Under the pieces are notes generated by a model that was not told the DNA's origin, did no database searches, and saw only the letters and a program-made list of their open reading frames with translations. A program made the position numbers and the translations under genes. 64,000 bases of DNA from Chiridota heheva. Its lineage: Eukaryota; Echinodermata; Holothuroidea; Apodida; Chiridotidae. Below are positions 2,716 through 56,047 of this stretch, piece by piece (the stretch's first letter is position 1; the number at the start of each line of letters is the position of its first letter). The stretch is taken from positions 469,501 through 533,500 of the forward strand of contig JAIGNY010002058.1 in the NCBI GenBank assembly GCA_020152595.1, written 5' to 3'.

Positions 2716-3892
2716 ATGACCCTGAAATCCTGTCAAGGCAACACTCACACAAACACCTACACTTCCCATCAATAGAGATGTATTCTAAGCAAATTTAATT
2801 GAATCTGACAGTCTCTCATGTATGGCAGATCAACTTTTCTTCTCTGTACTGACTAAGAAGATTGCGTTTCATCAAAGTATGTTTCTATTGTATATACATG
2901 AGCATGTTTTTGTTGCATATGCATGAACATGCTTCTATTGCATATGCATTGCAGACTTGAATCTCTGGATAATCTTATGTAATGAAAAAGAAATTTCCCG
3001 AGTAGTGCAGACCATAAGAATTGAGTTTCAGCTGATTTACAGCTTGAAGATTTTCAGTTCATTGAGTGAAAGAATTGTTGGTAATTCGTGCATTTTTGCC
3101 ATTAATCAATTTATTTCACTGAAGATGTTTTTTACAGGTATATTCAATTTGAATACGAAGTGTGTGTTTTTTTTATTTTCTTGCGGAGCGAGGTCAGCTG
3201 GACCCATGGTAATACCCAATTCCCCCATAATTTGTCACCATCATTTTCACAATACAAGTTGCCTATCACATTAGCCTGCATTGGTGTATCAAATGCAAAC
3301 AACGCTGCCAAGAACTTGCCACAATCACTTACAAACAAAAGAACAATGAAGAAGAATGCTTGAATTAAATTAAATGAAAACTTCCTGGATTGCAAGCTGG
3401 ATTTGTAGCATTGTAAAATGGATCCAAAACCAAGCAGTACAGTATATCACATCTAGGGTACCAAAGCTCAGGTCTCTCCTCATCAGACACAATCATTTTA
3501 TTCAAATAGCAAACTCTTCCTTCAAAATCAGTTGAAAATTATTGGATTTTCAATGAGAATTAACTAGGTGTTAAAAGTACAACAAATATACGCAAGCCTA
3601 TCATATTATGAGTGGAACAGACAGCTGTGGTGTGTGGTGTGTCATTGGCCCTATACCCCAGATCAGCTTAATCTGAAATGTACTTTTAATTTGGTCATAC
3701 CATACATAAACAAACATACCTATTTATCTTTAAGTCAGAAGCAGTTGAAGATTCAAAGAAAAGTCAACCAATATAATTTGCTGATAGTGTCCCCACTTTG
3801 TTATGAATTTTGTCTAATATCTTTCCCATGATCACATTGTACATGAAATGGACATATGAATGAACTGAAGGTTGGTTGCCACAAACCCTTGG
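2716..3892. other. Non-repetitive intron sequence
   Basis: Ordinary AT-rich intron. It contains three imperfect 25-bp copies of an ATG(T/C)TTYTATTGYATAT-type unit at 2879-2953. I looked on the minus strand for the next spectrin exon (expected to open in phase 0 with a Trp-containing helix) and did not find one. Confidence 0.6.
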
Positions 3893-4475
3893 GGGTTATC
3901 AAACACCTACCCTTCTTATTCTTCATGGAGTTGTACACTCTTGAGGGTTATCAAACACCTACCCTTCTTATTCTTTGTGGAGTTGTACATTCTTGAGGGT
4001 TATCAAACACCTACCCTTCTTATTCTTTGTGGAGTTGTACATTCTTGAGGGTTATCAAACACCTACCCTTCTTATTCTTCATGGAGTTGTACATTCTTGA
4101 GGGTTATCAAACACCTACCCTTCTTATTCTTTGTGGAGTTGTACACTCTTGGGGGTTATCAAACACCTACCTTTCTTATTCTTCGTAGAGTTGTACACTC
4201 TTGAGGGTTATCAAACACCTACTGTACCATTCTTATTCTTTCGTGGAGCTACACACTCTTGGAGGTTACCAAACACTTACCATTCTTATTCTTCTGTAAA
4301 ACTACACCCCCTTGGGAGTTATCAAAAACCTACCATTCTCATTATTTTGTAGAGCTGCACACTCTTGGGGGTTATCAAACACCTACCTGCCTTATTCTTT
4401 TGTGGAGCTGTACACCCTTGGGGTTATCAAATACATACCATTCTTATTCTTTTGTGGAGCTGCACACTTTTTTGA
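3893..4475. repeat. 52-bp minisatellite, about 11 copies, overlapping an exon end
   Basis: Units carry GGGTTATCAAACACCTACC followed by TTCTTATTCTTTGTGGAG and a GTACACTCTTG-type tail. The unit nearest the exon is the exon's own 3' end plus donor: CATTCTTATTCTTTTGTGGA lies within 4439-4467. Units nearest the exon resemble it most (TACCATTCTTATTCTT), distal ones less. On the minus strand every unit offers a donor-like GTAGGTG. Confidence 0.93.
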
Positions 4476-4636
4476 AGAACCATTTTCCTTCTGTCCAATT
4501 CTGTCTTTATCAAATCTGATTTTGTTTTGAGTTCTTCACATTTTGGTCGAATGGACTCCACAAGTTCATCCTCGCAGTACTCATCAATGATAGCCAGCCC
4601 TTCATCTTTAATAGTGTTCACACTCTGAAGCTGCTC
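4439..4636 (-). CDS. MCF2L: Exon, spectrin repeat, MCF2/MCF2L-like RhoGEF
   Basis: Exactly 66 codons, acceptor TTTTATACAG, donor AATG|GTATGT, phase 0 at both ends. The peptide begins EQLQSVNTIKDEG, carries VESIRPKCEELK near residues 27-38 and ends RKMVLQKSVQLHKRIRM. The motifs 'IRP(K/R)C.EL' and '(K/R)..LL.KS(L/V)(E/Q)LH(R/K)R(L/I)' are characteristic of the spectrin-repeat segment of MCF2 and MCF2L and are the strongest family evidence in the window. Reading past the donor hits a stop within three codons, supporting this exon edge. The last ~28 nt and the donor are the template of a 52-bp tandem array that fills the first 580 bp of the next intron. The next exon was not found down to position 1. 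Confidence 0.92.
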
Positions 4637-4760: not shown

Positions 4761-7700
4761 CCACACCTATTGCATGGCACTATCTTCACACCCAATGCAT
4801 GATAGTCTTCACACCCATCGCATGATAGTCTTCACACAAATTGCTTAATAGTCTTCACACCCATTGCACGATAGTCTTCACACCCATATCATGATAGTAT
4901 TCACACCCATTGCAAGAGTCTTCACACCCATTCCACGATAGTCTTCACTCATTGCAAGATAGTCTTCACACCCATTGCATAAGTCTTCACACCCATTGCA
5001 GGAGTCTTCACACCCATTGTACGATAATCTTCACACCCATTGCATTATATTCTTTACACCCATTGCATGATAGTTTTCACACCCATTGCATGATAGTCTT
5101 CACACCCATTGCACGATAGTCTTCACACACATTGCATTATAGTCTTTACACCCATTGCATTATAGTCTTTACACCCATTGCATGATATTCTTCACACATA
5201 TTGCATTATAGTTTTTACACCCATTGCATTATATTCTTTACACCCATCGCATAATAGTCTTCACACCCATTGCACAATAATCTTTACACCCATTGCATAA
5301 TACTCTTCACACCCATTGCATTATCTTCTTTACACCCATTGCACAATAGTCTTCACACCCATTGCACAATAGTCTTCACACCTATTGCATGATAGTCTTC
5401 ACACCCATCACATGATAGTCTTCACACCCATTGCACAATAGTCTTTACACCCATTGCATAATAGTCTTCAAACCCATTGCATTATAGTCTTTACACCCAT
5501 TGCATTATATTCTTCACACCCATTGCATGATAGTCTTCACACCCATTGTACAGTAGTCTTCACACCCATCGCATGATAGTCTTCACACCCATTGCATGAT
5601 AGTCTTCACACCCATTGCACAATAATCTTTACACCCATTGCATAATAGTCTTCACACCCATTGCATTATGTTCTTTACACCCATTGCACAATAGTCTTTA
5701 CACCCATTGCATTATATTCTTTACACCCATTGCATGATAGTCTTCACACCCATTGCATGATAGTCTTTACACCCATTGCATGATAGTCTTCACACCCATT
5801 GCACAATAATCTTTACACCATTGCATAATAGTCTTCGCACCCATTGCATTATGTTCTTTACACCCATTGCACAATAGTCTTTACACCCATTGCATTATAT
5901 TCTTTACACCCATTGCATGATAGTCTTCACACCCATTGCATTATAGTCTTTACACCCATTGCACAATAGTCTTCACACCCATCGCATGATAGTCTTTACA
6001 CCCATTGCATTATAGTCTTTACACCCATTCCATGATAGTCTTCACACCCATTGCAATATAGTCTTTACACCCATTGCATGATAACCTTCACACCCATTGC
6101 ATTATATTCTTCACACCCATTGCATGATAGTCTTCACACCCATTGCATTATATTCTTCACACCCATTGCATGATAGTCTTCACACCCATTGCACAATAGT
6201 CTTTGCACCTATTGCACAATAGTCTTCACACCCATTGCACAATAGTCTTCACACCCATTGCATGATAGTCTTTGCACCTATTGCATGATAGTCTTCACAC
6301 CCATTGCACGATAGTCTTTGCACCTATTGCACAATAATCTTTACACCCATTGCATGATAACCTTCACACCCATTGCATTATATTCTTCACACCCATTGCA
6401 TGATAGTCTTCACACCCATTGCATTATATTCTTCACACCCATTGCATGATAGTCTTCACACCCATTGCACAATAGTCTTTGCACCTATTGCACAATAGTC
6501 TTCACACCCATTGCACAATAGTCTTCACACCCATTGCATGATAGTCTTCACACCCATTGCATGATAGTCTTCACACCCATTGCACAATAGTCTTTGCACC
6601 TATTGCACAATAGTCTTCACACCCATTGCACAATAGTCTTCACACCCATTGCATGATAGTCTTTGCACCTATTGCATGATAGTCTTCACACCCATTGCAC
6701 AATAGTCTTTGCACCTATTGCACAATAGTCTTCACACCCATTGCACAATAGTCTTCACACCCATTGCATGATAGTCTTTGCACCTATTGCATGATAGTCT
6801 TCACACCCATTGCACAATAGTCTTTGCACCTATTGCATGATAGTCTTCACACCCATTGCACAATAGTCTTTGCACCTATTGCATGATAGTCTTCACACCC
6901 ATTGCATGATAGTCTTCACACCCATTGCACAATAGTCTTTGCACCCATTGCACAATAGTCTTCACACCCATTGCACAATAGTCTTCACACCCATTGCATT
7001 AAATTCTTCACACCCATTGCATGATAGTCTTCACACCCATTGCATGATAGTCTTCACACCCATTGCAATATAGTCTTTACACCCATCGCATGATAGTCTT
7101 CACACCCATTGCACAATAGTCTTCACACCCATTGCACAATAGTCTTCACACCCATTGCATTAAATTCTTCACACCCATTGCATGATAGTCTTCACACCCA
7201 TTGCATAATAGTCTTCACACCCATTGCACAATAATCTTCACACCCATTGCACAATAGTCTTCACACCCATTGCACAATAGTCTTCACACCCATTGCACAA
7301 TAGTCTTCACACCCACCGCATGATAGTCTTCACATTCATTGCATTATAGTCTTTACACCCATTGCATTATAGTCTTTACACCCAATGCATTATAGTCTTT
7401 ACACCCATTGCACAATAGTCTTCACACCCATCGCATTATATTTTTCACACCCATTGCATTATAGTCTTCACACCCATTGCATTAAATTCTTCACACCCAT
7501 TGCACAATAGTCTTCACACCCATCGCATGAGAGTCTTCACACCCATTGCATGATAGTCTTTACACCCATTCCATGAGAGTCTTCACACCCATTGCATGAT
7601 AGTCTTCACACCCATTGCAATATAGTCTTTACACCCATTGCACAATAGTCTTCACACCCATCACATGATAGTCTTTACACCCATTGCATGATAGTCTTTA

Positions 7701-8336
7701 CACCCATTGCATGATAGTCTTCACACCCATCGCATGATAGTCTTTACACCCATTGCATGATAGTCTTTACACCCATTCCATGATAGTCTTCACATTCATT
7801 GCACAATAGTCTTCACACCCATTCCATGATAGTCTTCACATTCATTGCACAATAGTCTTCACACCCATTCCATGATAGTCTTCACACCCATTGCAATATA
7901 GTCTTCACACCCATTGCACAATAGTCTTCACACCCATTGCATGATAATCTTCACACCCATTGCAATATAGTATTTACACCCATTGCACAATAGTCTTCAC
8001 ACCCATCACATGATAGTCTTCACACCCATTGCATTATAGTATTTACACCCATTGCACAATAGTCTTCACACCCATCGCATGATAGTCTTCACACCCATCG
8101 CATGATAGTCTTTACACCCATTCCATGATAGTCTTTACACCCATTGCATGATAGTATTTACACCCATTGCACAATAGTCTTCACACCCATTGCATTATAG
8201 TCTTCACACCCATTGCATTAAATTCTTCACACCCATTGCACAATAGTCTTCACACCCATCGCATGAGAGTCTTCACACCCATTGCATGATAGTCTTCACA
8301 CCCATTCCATGATAGTTTTCACACCCATTGCACAAT
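4761..8336. repeat. 23-bp minisatellite, about 155 copies
   Basis: Unit TCTTCACACCCATTGCATGA plus TAG. Common variants are CACAATAG, ATTATAG and CTTTACACC or CTTTGCACC. The stretches 6180-6480 and 6480-6900 show repeating orders of variants, meaning duplications of several units at once. Confidence 0.97.
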
Positions 8337-25191: not shown

Positions 25192-25800
25192 GTTGTTTGT
25201 TTGTTTGATGAGGTCTTAACGGCACCACGACAACGAAGGTCAAATTGTGCCTGAGAGGTCAGATCATTTTAGAGGTAGTAAGGAAAGAGACCAGGGGAAG
25301 AATGAGAGAAATTCAAGAACAAAAGCCAGAAAGCTGTGATCGAGAGAGGAGGTGCATGGGTAAAACTAAAAACAAAGTAGAGAGGGGGTATTAAATATGG
25401 TTGTAGAGGGATGCATGCTGAAGGAAGGAGACTATTTTATCTGGAGGATTTTTTTGGAAGAACTCAGCAATTGAGTTGTGGGGAGCGAGAGAAGCTCTGG
25501 GAAGGTTGTACAGGGGGCAAGCAAGGAGAACGTGTTGGATTGTGAGGATGCAGTGGCAATTGTTACAGAGGGGTTGGGGGGAACCAATAAGGAGGTGGGA
25601 GTGAGTGAGGTGGGTGTGACCAATTCTAAGACGGGTAATATGAACGTTGTCTATACGAGAAAGGTTGTTGATGGTGGATTTGATCGGGATTGTGGGCTGG
25701 ATAACATGGAGTTTGTTATCAATTTGGAAGTTCCATAAGGTTTGCCAGCGGATTTAGATATAGCATGTGAAATTTTACCCCAGAGTTTTTCATTAACCTA
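25192..25800 (-). mobile_element. 5'-truncated non-LTR retrotransposon (LINE) 3' end
   Basis: Minus-strand fragment made of the C-terminal end of the LINE polyprotein (25391-25735) and a ~190-bp 3' tail that finishes in CAAACAAACAAACAA at about 25192-25206. A short tandem tail instead of poly(A) is common in I/Jockey/CR1-like families. Sequence upstream of about 25735 is out of frame with stops, so the copy is decayed or truncated. The 5' limit (about 25800) is approximate and I found no clear target-site duplication. Confidence 0.75.
25391..25735 (-). pseudogene. LINE reverse-transcriptase polyprotein, C-terminal remnant
   Basis: Open stretch beginning near WNFQIDNKLH, carrying RLRIGHTHLTHSHLL and then a Cys/His cluster CNNCHC with a downstream H....C (ILTIQHVLLACP), and ending at a TAA at 25391-25393. 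The 'RLR.GHT.LTH..LL....P.C..C...LT..H.L..CP' layout is a well-known C-terminal signature of I/Jockey/CR1-type LINE ORF2 proteins. The RT catalytic core is absent. Upstream codons in the same frame contain stops. Minus orientation is the same as the host gene. Confidence 0.85.
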
Positions 25801-32659: not shown

Positions 32660-32774
32660 CTCTTTGAAATCCACTTCAAATCGTCTGACCTTGATGCACA
32701 ACACCAGCTTTCTCTCATGTACCACCCACTGATTCTGGAAGTCCAGCTCTCGCTCCTCCAGCTCCGATATTAAT
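32660..32774 (-). CDS. MCF2L: Exon, spectrin-repeat helix, MCF2/MCF2L-like RhoGEF
   Basis: One base plus 38 codons, with a strong acceptor (eight T then CCAG) and donor GAG|GTTAGA. Phase 2 in and phase 0 out fit both neighbours. The peptide begins LISELEERELDFQNQW and ends KVRRFEVDFKE. In MCF2-family proteins the corresponding stretch is a long helix with an L..L.E.E..F..W core and an 'L..FE.DF' motif where one spectrin repeat passes to the next. This matches position by position in pattern, so the assignment is stronger than composition alone. It supplies coiled-coil surface rather than catalysis. There are no internal stops in the exon, and the frame closes soon after the donor. Confidence 0.88.
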
Positions 32775-39095: not shown

Positions 39096-42000
39096 TAGAG
39101 CTTCTATAAGATTTACCTTTGATGAATTGATTGCCTTAAACAAACCTATAAGATATACCTTTGGTGAATTGATTGGCTTGGACACACCTATAAGATATAC
39201 CTTTAGTGAATTGATTGTCTTGGACAAGCCTATAAAATATACCTTTGGTGAATTGATTGCCTTGGACACACCTATAAGATATACCTTTGGTGAATTGATT
39301 GCCTTGGACAAACCTATAAGATATACCTTTGGTGAATTGATTGCCTTGGACAAACCTATAAGATATACCTTTGGTGAATTGATTGCCTTGGACAAACCTA
39401 TAAGATATACTTTTGGTGAATTGATTGCCTTGGACAAACCTATAAGATATACCTTTAATGAATTGATTGTCTTAGACAAATCTGTTAGATATACCTTTGG
39501 TGAATTGATTGTCTTGGACAAACATATAAGATATACCTTTAATGAATTGATTGTCTTAGACAAATCTGTTAGATATACCTTTGGTGAATTGATTGTCTTG
39601 AACAAACCTATAAGATATACCTTTGGTAAATTGATTACCTTGAACAAACCTATAAGATATACCTTGGGTGAATTGATTGTCTTGGACAAACCTATAAGAT
39701 ATACCTTTGGTGAATTGATTGCCTTGGACAAACCTATAAGATATACCTTTGGTGAATTGATTGCCTTGGACAAACCTATAAATATACCTTTGGTGAATTG
39801 ATTGTCTCGGACAAACCTATAGGATATACCTTTGGTGAATTGATTGCCTTGGACAAACCTATAAGATATACCTTTGGTGAATTGATTGCCTTGTACAAAC
39901 CTATAAGATATACCTTTGGTGAATTGATTGCCTTGGACAAACCTATAAGATATACCTTTAATAAATTGATTGTCTTGGACAAACCTATAAGATATACCTT
40001 TAGTGAATTGATTATCTTGAACAAACGTATAAGATATACCTTTGGTGAATTGATTGCCTTGGACAAACATATAAGATATACCTTTAATGAATTGATTGTC
40101 TTAGACAAATCTGTTAGATATACCTTTGGTGAATTGATTGTCTTGGACAAACCAATAAGATATACCTTTGGTGAATTGATTGTCTTGGACAAACCTATAA
40201 GATATACTTTTGGTGAATTGATTGTCTTGGACAAACCTATAAGATATACCTTTAATAAATTGATTGTCTTGGACAAACCTATAAGATATACCTTTAGTGA
40301 ATTGATTATCTTGAACAAATGTATAAGATATACCTTTGGTGAATTGATTGCCTTGGACAAACATATAAGATATACCTTTAATGAATTGATTGTCTTAGAC
40401 AAATCTGTTAGATATACCTTTGGTGAATTGATTGTCTTGGACAAACCTATAAGATATACCTTTGGTGAATTGATTGCCTTGGACAAACCTATAAGATATA
40501 CTTTTGGTGAATTGATTGTCTTGGACAAACCAATAAGATATACCTTTGGTGATTAATTGCCTTGGACAAACCTATAAGATATACCTTTGGTAAATTGATT
40601 GCCTTGGACAAACCTATAAGATATACCTTTGGTGAATTGATTGTCTTGGACAAACCTATAAGATATACCTTTGGTGAATTGATTGTCTTGGACAAACCTA
40701 TAAGATATACTTTTGGTGAATTGATTGCCTTGGACAAACCTATAAGATATACCTTTGGTGAATTGATTGCCTTGGACAAACCTATAAGATATACCTTTGG
40801 TGAATTGATTGTCTTGGACAAACCTATAAGATATACTTTTGGTGAATTGATTGTCTTGGACAAACCTATAAGATATACCTTTGGTGAGTTGATTGCCTTG
40901 GACAAACCTATAAGATATACCTTTGGTGAATTGATTGTCTTGGACAAACCTATAAGATATACCTTTGGTAAATTGATTGCCTTGGACAAACCTATAAGAT
41001 ATACCTTTGGTGAATTGATTCCCTTGGACAAACCTATAAGATATACCTTTGGTGAATTGATTGTCTTGGACAAACCTATAAGATATACCTTTGGTGAATT
41101 GATTGTCTTGGACAAACCTATAAGATATACCTTTGGTAAATTGATTGCCTTGGACAAACCTATAAGATATACCTTTGGTGAATTGATTGCCTTGGACAAA
41201 CCTATAAGATATACCTTTGGTGAATTGATTGCCTTGGACAAACCTATAAGATATACCTTCGGTGAATTGATTGCCTTGGACAAACCTATAAGATATACCT
41301 TTGGTGAATTGATTGTCTTGGACAAACCTATAAGATATACCTTTGGTGAATTGATTGTCTTGGACAAACCTATAAGATATACCTTTGGTGAATTGATTGT
41401 CTTGGACAAACCTATAAGATATACCTTCGGTGAATTGATTGTCTTGGACAAACCTATAAGATATATAAGTGGAGAGGTCTTGTGATTAATTGCCTTGGAC
41501 AAACCTATAAGATATACCTTTGGTGAATTGATTGCCTTGGACAAACCTATAAGATATACCTTTGGTGAATTGATTGTCTTGGACAAACCTATAAGATATA
41601 CCTTTGGTAAATTGATTGCCTTGGACAAACCTATAAGATATACCTTTGGTGAATTGATTTCCTTGGACAAACCTAAGATAAGATATACCTTTGGTGAATT
41701 GATTGCCTTGGACAAACCTATAAGATATACCTTTGGTAAATTGATTGGCTTGGACAAACCTATAAGATATACCTTTGGTGAATTGATTTCCTTGGACAAA
41801 CCTATAAGATATACCTTTGGTGAATTGATTGCCTTGGACAAACCTATAAGATATACCTTTGGTAAATTGATTGCCTTGGACAAACCTATAAGATATACCT
41901 TTGGTGAATTGATTTCCTTGGACAAACCTATAAGATATACCTTTGGTGAATTGATTGTCTTGGACAAACCTATAAGATATACCTTTGGTGAATTGATTGC

Positions 42001-45000
42001 CTTGGACAAACCTATAAGATATACCTTCGGTGAATTGATTGCCTTGGACAAACCTATAAGATATACCTTTGGTGAATTGATTGTCTTGGACAAACCTATA
42101 AGATATACCTTGGTGAATTGATTGTCTTGGACAAACCTATAAGATATACCTTTGGTGAATTGATTGTCTTGGACAAACCTATAAGATATACCTTTGGTAA
42201 ATTGATTGCCTTGGACAAACCTATAAGATATACCTTTGGTGATTAATTGCCTTGGACAAACCTATAAGATATACCTTTGGTAAATTGATTGTCTTGGACA
42301 AACCTATAAGATATACCTTTGGTGAATTGATTCCCTTGGACAAACCTATAAGATATACCTTTGGTGATTAATTGCCTTGGACAAACCTATAAGATATACC
42401 TTTGGTGAATTGATTGCCTTGGACAAACCTATAAGATATACCTTTGGTGAATTGATTGCCTTGGACAAACCTATAAGATATACCTTTGGTAAATTGATTG
42501 CCTTGGACAAACCTATAAGATATACCTTTGGTGAATTGATTCCCTTGGACAAACCTATAAGATATACCTTTAATAAATTGATTGTCTTGGACAAACCTAT
42601 AAGATATACCTTTAGTGAATTGATTATCTTGAACAAATGTATAAGATATACCTTTGGTGAATTGATTGCCTTGGACAAACATATAAGATATACCTTTAAT
42701 GAATTGATTGTCTTAGACAAATCTGTTAGATATACCTTTGGTGAATTGATTGTCTTGGACAAACCTATAAGATATACCTTTGGTGAATTGATTGCCTTGG
42801 ACAAACCTATAAGATATACTTTTGGTGAATTGATTGTCTTGGACAAACCAATAAGATATACCTTTGGTGATTAATTGCCTTGGACAAACCTATAAGATAT
42901 ACCTTTGGTAAATTGATTGCCTTGGACAAACCTATAAGATATACCTTTGGTGAATTGATTGTCTTGGACAAACCTATAAGATATACCTTTGGTGAATTGA
43001 TTGTCTTGGACAAACCTATAAGATATACTTTTGGTGAATTGATTGCCTTGGACAAACCTATAAGATATACCTTTGGTGAATTGATTGCCTTGGACAAACC
43101 TATAAGATATACCTTTGGTGAATTGATTGTCTTGGACAAACCTATAAGATATACTTTTGGTGAATTGATTGTCTTGGACAAACCTATAAGATATACCTTT
43201 GGTGAGTTGATTGCCTTGGACAAACCTATAAGATATACCTTTGGTGAATTGATTGTCTTGACAAACCTATAAGATATACCTTTGGTAAATTGATTGCCTT
43301 GGACAAACCTATAAGATATACCTTTGGTGAATTGATTCCCTTGGACAAACCTATAAGATATACCTTTGGTGAATTGATTGTCTTGGACAAACCTATAAGA
43401 TATACCTTTGGTGAATTGATTGTCTTGGACAAACCTATAAGATATACCTTTGGTAAATTGATTGTCTTGGACAAACCTATAAGATATACCTTTGGTGAAT
43501 TGATTGCCTTGGACAAACCTATAAGATATACCTTTGGTGAATTGATTGCCTTGGACAAACCTATAAGATATACCTTCGGTGAATTGATTGCCTTGGACAA
43601 ACCTATAAGATATACCTTTGGTGAATTGATTGTCTTGGACAAACCTATAAGATATACCTTTGGTGAATTGATTGTCTTGGACAAACCTATAAGATATACC
43701 TTTGGTGAATTGATTGCCTTGGACAAACCTATAAGATATACCTTCGGTGAATTGATTGTCTTGGACAAACCTATAAGATATACCTTTGGTGATTAATTGC
43801 CTTGGACAAACCTATAAGATATACCTTTGGTGAATTGATTGCCTTGGACAAACCTATAAGATATACCTTTGGTGAATTGATTGTCTTGGACAAACCTATA
43901 AGATATACCTTTGGTAAATTGATTGCCTTGGACAAACCTATAAGATATACCTTTGGTGAATTGATTTCCTTGGACAAACCTATAAGATATACCTTTGGTG
44001 AATTGATTGCCTTGGACAAACCTATAAGATATACCTTTGGTAAATTGATTGCCTTGGACAAACCTATAAGATATACCTTTGGTGAATTGATTTCCTTGGA
44101 CAAACCTATAAGATATACCTTTGGTGAATTGATTGTCTTGGACAAACCTATAAGATATACCTTTGGTGAATTGATTGCCTTGGACAAACCTATAAGATAT
44201 ACCTTTGGTGAATTGATTGCCTTGGACAAACCTATAAGATATACCTTTGGTGAATTGATTGTCTTGGACAAACCTATAAGATATACCTTCGGTGAATTGA
44301 TTGTCTTGGACAAACCTATAAGATATACCTTTGGTGAATTGATTGTCTTGGACAAACCTATAAGATATACCTTTGGTAAATTGATTGCCTTGGACAAACC
44401 TATAAGATATACCTTTGGTGATTAATTGCCTTGGACAAACCTATAAGATATACCTTTGGTAAATTGATTGTCTTGGACAAACCTATAAGATATACCTTTG
44501 GTGAATTGATTCCCTTGGACAAACCTATAAGATATACCTTTGGTGATTAATTGCCTTGGACAAACCTATAAGATATACCTTTGGTGAATTGATTGCCTTG
44601 GACAAACCTATAAGATATACCTTTGGTGAATTGATTGCCTTGGACAAACCTATAAGATATACCTTTGGTAAATTGATTGCCTTGGACAAACCTATAAGAT
44701 ATACCTTTGGTGAATTGATTGTCTTGGACAAACCTATAAGATTTACCTTTGGTGATTAATTGCCTTGGACAAACCTATAAGATATACCTTTGGTGAATTG
44801 ATTGTCTTGGACAAACCTATAAGATATACCTTTGGTGAATTGATTGTCTTGGACAAACCTATAAGATATACCTTTGGTGAATTGATCGTCTTGGACAAAC
44901 CTATAAGATATACCTTTGGTGAATTGATTGCCTTGGACAAACCTATAAGATATACCTTTGGTGAATTGATTGCCTTGGACAAACCTATAAGATATACCTT

Positions 45001-45278
45001 TGGTAAATTGATTGCCTTGGACAAACCTATAAGATATACCTTTGGTGAATTGATTCCCTTGGACAAACCTATAAGATTTACCTTTGGTGATTAATTGCCT
45101 TGGACAAACCTATAAGATATACCTTTGGTGAATTGATTGTCTTGGACAAACCTACAAGATATACCTTTGGTGAATTGATTGTCTTGGACAAACCTATAAG
45201 ATATACCTTTGGTGATTAATTGCCTTGGACAAACCTATAAGATATACCTTTGGTAAATTGATTGCCTTGGACAAACAC
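39096..45278. repeat. 42-bp minisatellite, about 147 copies, with higher-order repeats
   Basis: Largest array in the window. The unit is GACAAACCTATAAGATATAC, then CTTTGGTGAATTGATTGCC/TCTTG. Because 42 is a multiple of 3 it reads LDKPIRYTFGELIA on plus and INSPKVYLIGLSKA on minus, both open for hundreds of codons. Units with GGTGATTAATTGCC (one base short) break the plus frame. Rare units repeat at fixed distances: AATAAATTGATTGTCTT at 39960, 40254 and 42572, so there are 294-bp (7-unit) and ~2.3-kb duplications. It ends 20-25 bp from the donor of the exon at 45301. Confidence 0.97.
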
Positions 45279-45300: not shown

Positions 45301-45572
45301 CTCTGTATTGCACTTATTGTGGTATTTTCATCTGCATTACCACCCTCAGGTTCACCATCATACGGCCTCTGAAGGCATCGCAGCAGTGTTTTCCCATATT
45401 TGACAGCACTTTGAAGGTCATCTTTCACTTCCATATGTTTCTTCCTTTGGTCCATAAGCAAGACGGTGGCACTCTCCACGTCATTAGGCAGTTCAGTCTG
45501 TCGAAGCTCATCCACTAGATGTTGGACTGTAGATGAGCGTTCTCTGCAGTTATTGGCAAATCTTTCAATAGC
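45301..45572 (-). CDS. MCF2L: Exon, linker and first spectrin-like helices, MCF2/MCF2L-like RhoGEF
   Basis: Largest exon in the window: 90 codons plus two bases, acceptor TTTGTTAG, donor CAGAG|GTGAGC, opening in phase 0 and closing in phase 2. The two leftover bases (AG) join the single A that opens the next exon to make an Arg codon, so the junction is phase-consistent. Recognisable features are ELRQTELPNDVES about residues 22-34 and YGKTLLRCLQRP about residues 59-70, both matching the post-Sec14 region of MCF2/MCF2L (an 'ETELPNDV' stretch, then an amphipathic helix ending in 'LL..I..P'). The acidic, glycine-rich stretch EPEGGNADEN is probably a loop. Mostly alpha-helical and charged; no membrane segment. 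The 42-bp array of the following intron ends about 25 bp from the donor. Confidence 0.9.
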
Positions 45573-55410: not shown

Positions 55411-55650
55411 TCATGGGTTACCACTTCCTACCTCTAGCTTTTAACATTCTGGGTCACAACAGCCTCCAAACCTTACCATTCTGGATCACTTCCTACCCCT
55501 AGCCCTTAACATTCTGGGTCACAACTTCCTCTAGCACTTACCATTCTGGATCACGACTACCCCTAGGCCTTAACATTCTGGGTCATAACTGCCTCTAGCA
55601 CTTGACATTCTAGGTTACATGCAACTACCTCTAACCCTTACCATTCTGTC
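55411..55650. repeat. 31-37-bp imperfect repeat, about 7 copies, containing exon donor copies
   Basis: Units built on CTCTAGCACTTACCATTCTG (CATTCTGGGTCA at about 55446, 55477, 55510, 55542, 55576, 55606, 55643). The last copy is the real exon end and donor of the exon at 55642 (inverse: CAGAATG|GTAAGG). At 55535-55541 the inverse reads AATG|GTAAGTG. Confidence 0.88.
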
Positions 55651-55758
55651 CTCAATCCAGCTTGTAAGGTCAAAGGTCAAAGATCCTCCAAGTTCCCGGG
55701 TCAGCTGCGTAGAATCTATGTCTTTGTGGAGATCCTGAAGTGAATCACAGAGTACAAT
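55642..55758 (-). CDS. MCF2L: Exon, C-terminal end of CRAL-TRIO/Sec14 domain, MCF2/MCF2L-like RhoGEF
   Basis: Exactly 39 codons, phase 0 at both ends, with acceptor ATTCTCAG and donor ATG|GTAAGG. The peptide has the signature DLHKDIDSTQLTRELGG followed by SLTFDLTSWI. The pattern 'L.DLH..ID.SQLT.ELGG.L.....W' closes the Sec14-like domain of MCF2, MCF2L, Trio, Kalirin and SESTD1. In this family the Sec14 domain binds phosphoinositides and helps keep the exchange factor inactive and membrane-targeted (family knowledge). Translation continues in phase into the exon at 45572, giving WIEDRM then AIERF, as expected for the start of the region after the Sec14 domain. The intronic side of the donor is part of a tandem array (55411-55650) whose units repeat this splice site. 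Confidence 0.9.
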
Positions 55759-56047
55759 CTGAGAATAACAAAACCAGACAATCTGAGAAAAACAAAACTA
55801 GACCAAGAAGATGAAGAATGAAAGCAACTATCTCTTGCAATGGAAATATTCCTTCTTAATGAATGTATGAGAAATGCACTTGGTAGCAAAATATTATTAC
55901 AGCTTCAGTGTGCATGTTTGTGTTTGCAATTATAATTCAAAGTACCTTAAGGAATTTATCTTTTCATCAAAAGACATTTGCTTCAACAGGTATTATGCTG
56001 TAATGTGCAAGTAGTCTATTGATAAGATGTATCAACTTGGAATTGAG
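55759..56047. other. Unique intron sequence
   Basis: Short intron piece upstream of the CRAL-TRIO exon; nothing else recognised. Confidence 0.45.

Follow-up and report, generated by a model that had tools for sequence, protein, structure and literature searches.

Gene and array at the locus

We analysed 64,000 nt of the holothuroid Chiridota heheva (GenBank assembly GCA_020152595.1, contig JAIGNY010002058.1, positions 469,501–533,500), hereafter the window, in which positions are counted from its first base; the source assembly comprises 1.1 Gb in 3744 contigs. Near the start of the window, a coding exon of a predicted MCF2L/DBS-like gene on the minus strand, termed Ea, runs directly into a 52-bp minisatellite whose units are copies of the exon's own junction with the following intron. 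A preliminary description had proposed such an array from the letters of the window. Its main features are:

4439..4636, minus strand: coding exon Ea, 198 nt (EQLQSV...LHKRIRM), placed by tblastn, by the Pfam matches of the joined exons and by the acceptor TTTTATACAG before 4636
4420..4471, minus strand: unit U01, 33 nt of exon (4439–4471) and 19 nt of intron (4420–4438), including the real donor
3891..4419, minus strand: ten intronic copies, U02 to U11, of 52–58 nt, each with a donor-like GT

We assign the gene from its predicted protein. A tblastn search with an approximate human MCF2L query located four exons in the window and four elsewhere on the contig, all on one strand, in order and with E values of 6e-4 or better; Ea itself aligned with 49% identity over 39 amino acids (E = 3e-7). 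In Pfam, the joined predicted exons pass the curated cut-offs of two families, CRAL_TRIO_2 (E = 1.1e-12) and the 'guanine nucleotide exchange factor DBS-like' family Spectrin_5 (E = 3.5e-9).

The true end of Ea follows from the next exon (contig 468704 down to 468513), which starts with GCGCAAGAATGG and is preceded by a pyrimidine-rich acceptor. Joining ...LHKRIRM of Ea to AQEWCDNG of the next exon gives a gapless product, colinear with LHRRLET and SMKWCDEG of the human query; Ea therefore ends at 4439. The real donor reads ATG/GTATGT on the minus strand (the slash marks the exon end), with the first intron base at 4438. An in-frame TGA TAA lies at intron positions +10 to +15 (4424..4429, minus strand), so the open frame cannot enter the array.

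Anatomy and age structure of the array

Tandem Repeats Finder (TRF) reports a 52-bp unit in 11.0 copies between 3888 and 4468. Cutting the array at its unit seams yielded 11 units spanning 3891–4471, with lengths of 52, 53, 53, 53 and 58 nt followed by six of 52 nt. The unit thus joins an exon end, a donor and adjoining intron, as first described, although the extents given then (~28 nt and ~24 nt) have to be replaced by 33 nt and 19 nt; the estimate of about ten further copies in the intron was accurate. Within U01, the 33 exonic nt that close Ea encode KSVQLHKRIRM. Similarity between exon edge and intron exceeds chance. Aligned to 700 nt of intron, the last 30 exonic nt of Ea reach a score of 50 and the 55-nt junction one of 78, whereas the maxima among 1000 dinucleotide shuffles were 26 and 33, respectively, with 0/1000 shuffles equalling the observed score in either comparison.

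The units differ in divergence along the array. U02–U05 show 72–85% identity to U01 and to one another, whereas identity within U06–U11 is 90–100% and all six have the same 1-nt deletion in their exon-derived portion. This pattern suggests that the age of the copies decreases with distance from the exon. In an unrooted, poorly resolved tree of the units, U01 sits on a short branch, which agrees weakly with the earlier expectation of a basal exon copy, and U06–U11 fall together on one side of a branch.

The exon edge was named at the outset as the likely source of the units, and the sequence evidence bears this out. Because the exonic part of U01 is conserved, in-frame coding sequence, colinear with the human MCF2L query and continuing without a gap into the next exon, the predicted direction of origin is from exon to intron.

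One further match was noticed within Ea. A stretch of 16 nt (4608–4623) agrees at 15/16 positions with an upstream 23-bp array (4762–8332). The first part of Ea scores 27 against that array, compared with shuffle maxima of 24 and 26 over 700 nt, and the match was unseen in a 250-nt test; it may be due to chance.

Decoy donors behind the real donor

The GT is kept in 10/10 intronic copies, with first bases at 4386, 4333, 4280, 4222, 4170, 4118, 4066, 4014, 3962 and 3910. A vertebrate frequency table assigns a score of 7.5 to the real site; the ten copies score 10.1, 7.9, 10.5, 4.6, 10.0 and five times 7.8. Pairing with U1 is predicted at an energy of −7.2 for the real donor, and the copies range from −7.2 to −13.7. 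The suspected array of decoy donors immediately behind the real one is therefore present, and 9/10 decoys score at least as high as the site they follow.

The preliminary description had also argued that use of a decoy would shift the frame, since 52 is not a multiple of 3. This argument is moot: the TGA TAA precedes the first decoy, which starts 52 nt past the real donor at intron +53. A stop in frame ahead of the first GT-bearing copy was found in 8/8 donor arrays examined; by a rough estimate of our own, this would occur by chance with a probability of ~0.08, and we draw no conclusion from it. The data do not support selection on the decoy GTs: two of the myosin arrays described below have lost many of them, with GT kept in only 24/40 copies at L022 and 2/4 at L060, as expected from drift.

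Relation to the mirages of amphioxus

Minisatellites at exon–intron boundaries have been described as 'mirages' in the amphioxus genes Adh3, the globins BflGb6 and BflGb9, and PGBD5, with troponin C also cited (PMC3087553, PMC3902484); the boundary repeats of lancelet PGBD5 measure 60 and 108 bp (PMC3902484). These reports describe single amphioxus genes (PMC3087553, PMC3902484); regular splicing is reported as undisturbed, and mirages are proposed as a source of new introns (PMC3087553). The Ea array resembles them in that intronic copies carry splice signals and the edge of the cluster escapes homogenization (PMC3087553, PMC3902484), and differs in its particulars: a 52-bp unit, 11 copies and an MCF2L/DBS-like gene. 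The assembly had no match to the GFP family, of which lancelets have many genes, and lancelet genomes are about half its 1.1 Gb; these points lean only weakly away from a lancelet, as no positive control for GFP gave a match. Molluscan haemocyanin and the annelid linker and cuticle families likewise had no match, again with no control responding, and COX1, matched in 8/14 control genomes, was not found either. Judged by its sequence, the array has the anatomy of a mirage. Its tandem unit spans an exon–intron boundary; one terminal copy, U01, is the authentic predicted edge of an exon that is colinear and in frame with the next; and all ten intronic copies bear a putative splice signal.

Two other systems are comparable in part. 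In human duplicated genes, one report describes internal tandem repeats at exon–intron boundaries, with cryptic splice sites and newly formed introns (PMC2812944). The minisatellite units at a boundary and the cryptic sites are shared with Ea; the human repeats, however, change transcripts and form new introns, whereas no change was seen in the Ea gene structure. Drosophila cases (PMC2891723) share a tandem duplication carrying a splice signal; in them, an intron arises from a duplication within an exon, whereas at Ea the donor was copied into an intron that was already present. The model of intron gain by tandem duplication, in which a new intron arises between duplicated AG/GT sites of coding sequence, does not apply to Ea, whose coding sequence continues gapless into the next exon. 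Among the open-licence papers listed on such repeats in lancelets or in intron gain, we recognized only the two lancelet reports as dealing with boundary repeats.

Other boundaries of the same gene

The remaining exons and boundary repeats of the gene in the window are:

55642..55758, minus strand: exon E1, end of the CRAL-TRIO domain (tblastn, Pfam)
45301..45572, minus strand: exon E2, without a boundary copy in the shuffle test (tblastn)
32660..32774, minus strand: exon E3, without a boundary copy in the shuffle test (tblastn)
55422..55648, minus strand: array of ~32-bp units across the E1 5' splice site (TRF, junction score)
55754..55803, minus strand: 24-bp duplication at the E1 3' splice site with ~5 exonic nt (TRF, 2.1 copies, 92%)

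One exon expected between E3 and Ea was not found in 4641–32650. For each of the eight exons we compared the 50-nt junctions at both boundaries (16 in all) with the adjoining 250 nt of intron, using 1000 shuffles each and skipping periods <30. Three boundaries exceeded every shuffle: the Ea 5' splice site (score 64, shuffle maximum 33), the E1 5' splice site (39 against 30, in a match holding 7 exonic nt) and the 3' splice site of the exon after Ea (33 against 26), which has an upstream copy with 16 exonic nt (L002, 7690–7830). The E1 3' splice site duplication was equalled by 4/1000 shuffles in a 700-nt test and by 84/1000 in the test skipping periods <30. Counting it, the gene has four boundary duplications, and the remaining 12/16 boundaries were negative for boundary copies. 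The intron holding the Ea array has a boundary duplication at each end. At the E1 3' splice site, use of the upstream AG would add eight in-frame codons (IVWFCYSQ) without a stop. A 6.2-kb array beside E2 (39104–45276) was rejected as a boundary array, with 637/1000 shuffles equalling its junction score.

Three of the 16 boundaries (Ea 5', E1 5' and E1 3') lie inside a TRF array, for which random seeding gives P(3 or more) = 0.013. This result is only suggestive, because tandem arrays, 56 in number, fill 62% of the 81.6-kb gene span. Over 144.8 kb of the contig, 59% lies in TRF arrays, and introns are dominated by minisatellites with many unrelated units.

The octamer AGAATGGT is common to three boundary arrays of the gene (window 4438 and 55641; L002 7699). 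A shared octamer was found in 1/560 boundary-context triples, and 9/10 sense-strand occurrences of this one in the 144.8 kb fall in those three arrays. Visual inspection of the six myosin junctions described below did not reveal it, and we take it as chance. Elsewhere in the window, a minus-strand open frame of 120 codons (25391–25753) resembles a protein fragment of the long interspersed nuclear element type, although it has no Pfam match.

Boundary copies at myosin and kinesin exons

A Myosin_head search of the genome gave at least 68 exon matches (65 of the 169 first candidates were scored). All 68 were read, no haplotype pairs were present among them, and their boundaries, placed by prediction, comprised 63 donors and 65 acceptors. 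A downstream copy holding 15–20 nt of exon was found at 6/63 donors (L016, L022, L038, L055, L060 and L061) and a boundary copy at 0/65 acceptors (Fisher P = 0.013). Flags with little or no exon in the match were left uncounted (the 3' splice sites of L016, L043 and L053, the last a microsatellite, and the 5' splice site of L034). TRF detects arrays at L022 (30 bp, 45.2 copies), L038 (45 bp, 1.9 copies) and L060 (58 bp, 5.3 copies). For five of the six cases, the best PDB match listed runs close to or up to the exon end: residue 53 of 54 in L060, 68 of 69 in L016, 57 of 57 in L055, 49 of 50 in L061 and 69 of 71 in L022.

As controls, a downstream copy without an upstream one was present at 48/2003 random intron positions, and a copy at 0/340 exon-interior positions. 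Locus-matched intron sampling predicts 1.74 donors with a copy, compared with the 6 observed (P = 0.005), and 2.2 acceptors compared with 0 (P = 0.10). When intron GTs were chosen by the donor rule, 0.70 were expected and 0/20,000 draws reached 6. The donor excess comes from one gene family and was found after the first cases had been seen; boundary arrays may also stay detectable for longer because exon copies change slowly. Among 120 kinesin exon matches, 0/5 donors inspected by eye were spanned (list entries 1, 2, 4, 5 and 6; the third, C2251:654483-654779, was passed over for stops in the match).

Two of the myosin loci have features of their own. At L055 (740–1030), the exon end DNGECLDLVEK is copied 226 nt downstream, between an acceptor-like CTTTGCAG and a donor, and this copy looks like a ready-made small exon. 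At L022 (1698–3050), the 30-nt unit is a multiple of 3, yet the frame meets a stop before the first GT-bearing copy.

Origin of the array and alternative explanations

The Ea array is probably a mirage, that is, a tolerated, boundary-seeded minisatellite with mostly silent decoys, in which we infer both the silence and the mechanism of growth. A tandem duplication that happened to span the exon–intron junction would have seeded it. Slippage or unequal exchange would then have extended it into the intron, most recently by amplifying the copies far from the exon, while protein constraint would hold the exon copy and the remaining copies drift. As the real donor is transcribed first, the decoys behind it may stay mostly silent; their silence is suggested by the published cases, the order of transcription and the stops. 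A slip to a decoy would read into TGA TAA, and the mis-spliced RNA would presumably be removed by nonsense-mediated decay, leaving the array tolerated and not used. This reading gains support from the other three boundary duplications of the gene and from the six at myosin donors. Several points weigh against it: support falls short of the threshold at all seven inner branches of the unit tree, and the basal position of U01 is weak; the DBS-like Pfam match falls in the exon after Ea and not within it; the human MCF2L sequence compared with Ea is approximate; and pure drift need not leave a GT in every copy, nearly all of them as strong as the real donor or stronger.

This last point speaks for functional decoys, with tandem donors gathering U1 to regulate Ea, either through decay-coupled alternative 5' splice sites or by shielding the long intron from early polyadenylation. 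The stops ahead of the first GT-bearing copy in all eight donor arrays would also fit such a role. However, the near-identity of the far copies reflects their youth, so their kept GTs say little; 16/40 copies at L022 and 2/4 at L060 have lost theirs; and the run of stops has the appreciable chance probability given above. We regard a function as unlikely. Less likely still is the reverse origin, in which a minisatellite of the intron would have expanded into the exon and contributed the final 33 nt of Ea. The unrooted tree is compatible with it, but these 33 nt code for amino acids colinear with the human MCF2L query, and PDB homology extends to the exon end in five myosin cases.

A mirage-type origin might also require no preference for donors, if arrays fill most introns and some reach exon ends by chance. 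The 56 arrays covering 62% of the gene, together with the absence of boundary copies at all 65 myosin acceptors and at the five kinesin donors, are consistent with this, whereas the count of six at myosin donors exceeds both intron expectations (1.74 and 0.70) and the three gene boundaries inside TRF arrays exceed random seeding (P = 0.013). We hold chance arrival to be a real possibility, short of probable. We put forward its counterpart tentatively: in this genome, surviving minisatellites would arise preferentially at 5' splice sites, with no such preference for 3' splice sites. Transcription would reach copies born at a donor only after the real site, leaving them harmless, but would reach those born at an acceptor ahead of it. 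A donor excess with none at acceptors fits such tolerance, given the position of donor copies downstream, and of acceptor copies upstream, of the real site. Weighing against a preference by tolerance, the lack at acceptors is not significant alone (P = 0.10), and 2/4 duplications in the window's gene sit at acceptors. The excess may instead stem from a mutational preference for donors.

Implications

The Ea array belongs to a kind already described, the mirage; the new and testable part is the donor bias. With four boundary duplications in one gene and six at myosin donors, and none at the myosin acceptors tested, the process becomes countable. It bears on how strong decoy donors that closely follow a weaker real one escape use by the spliceosome, and on whether boundary repeats feed intron and exon gain. 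If the donor preference is true, this genome would hold a standing supply of ready-made donors, with some copies also acceptor-like (L055, L060), from which new exons and introns could arise.
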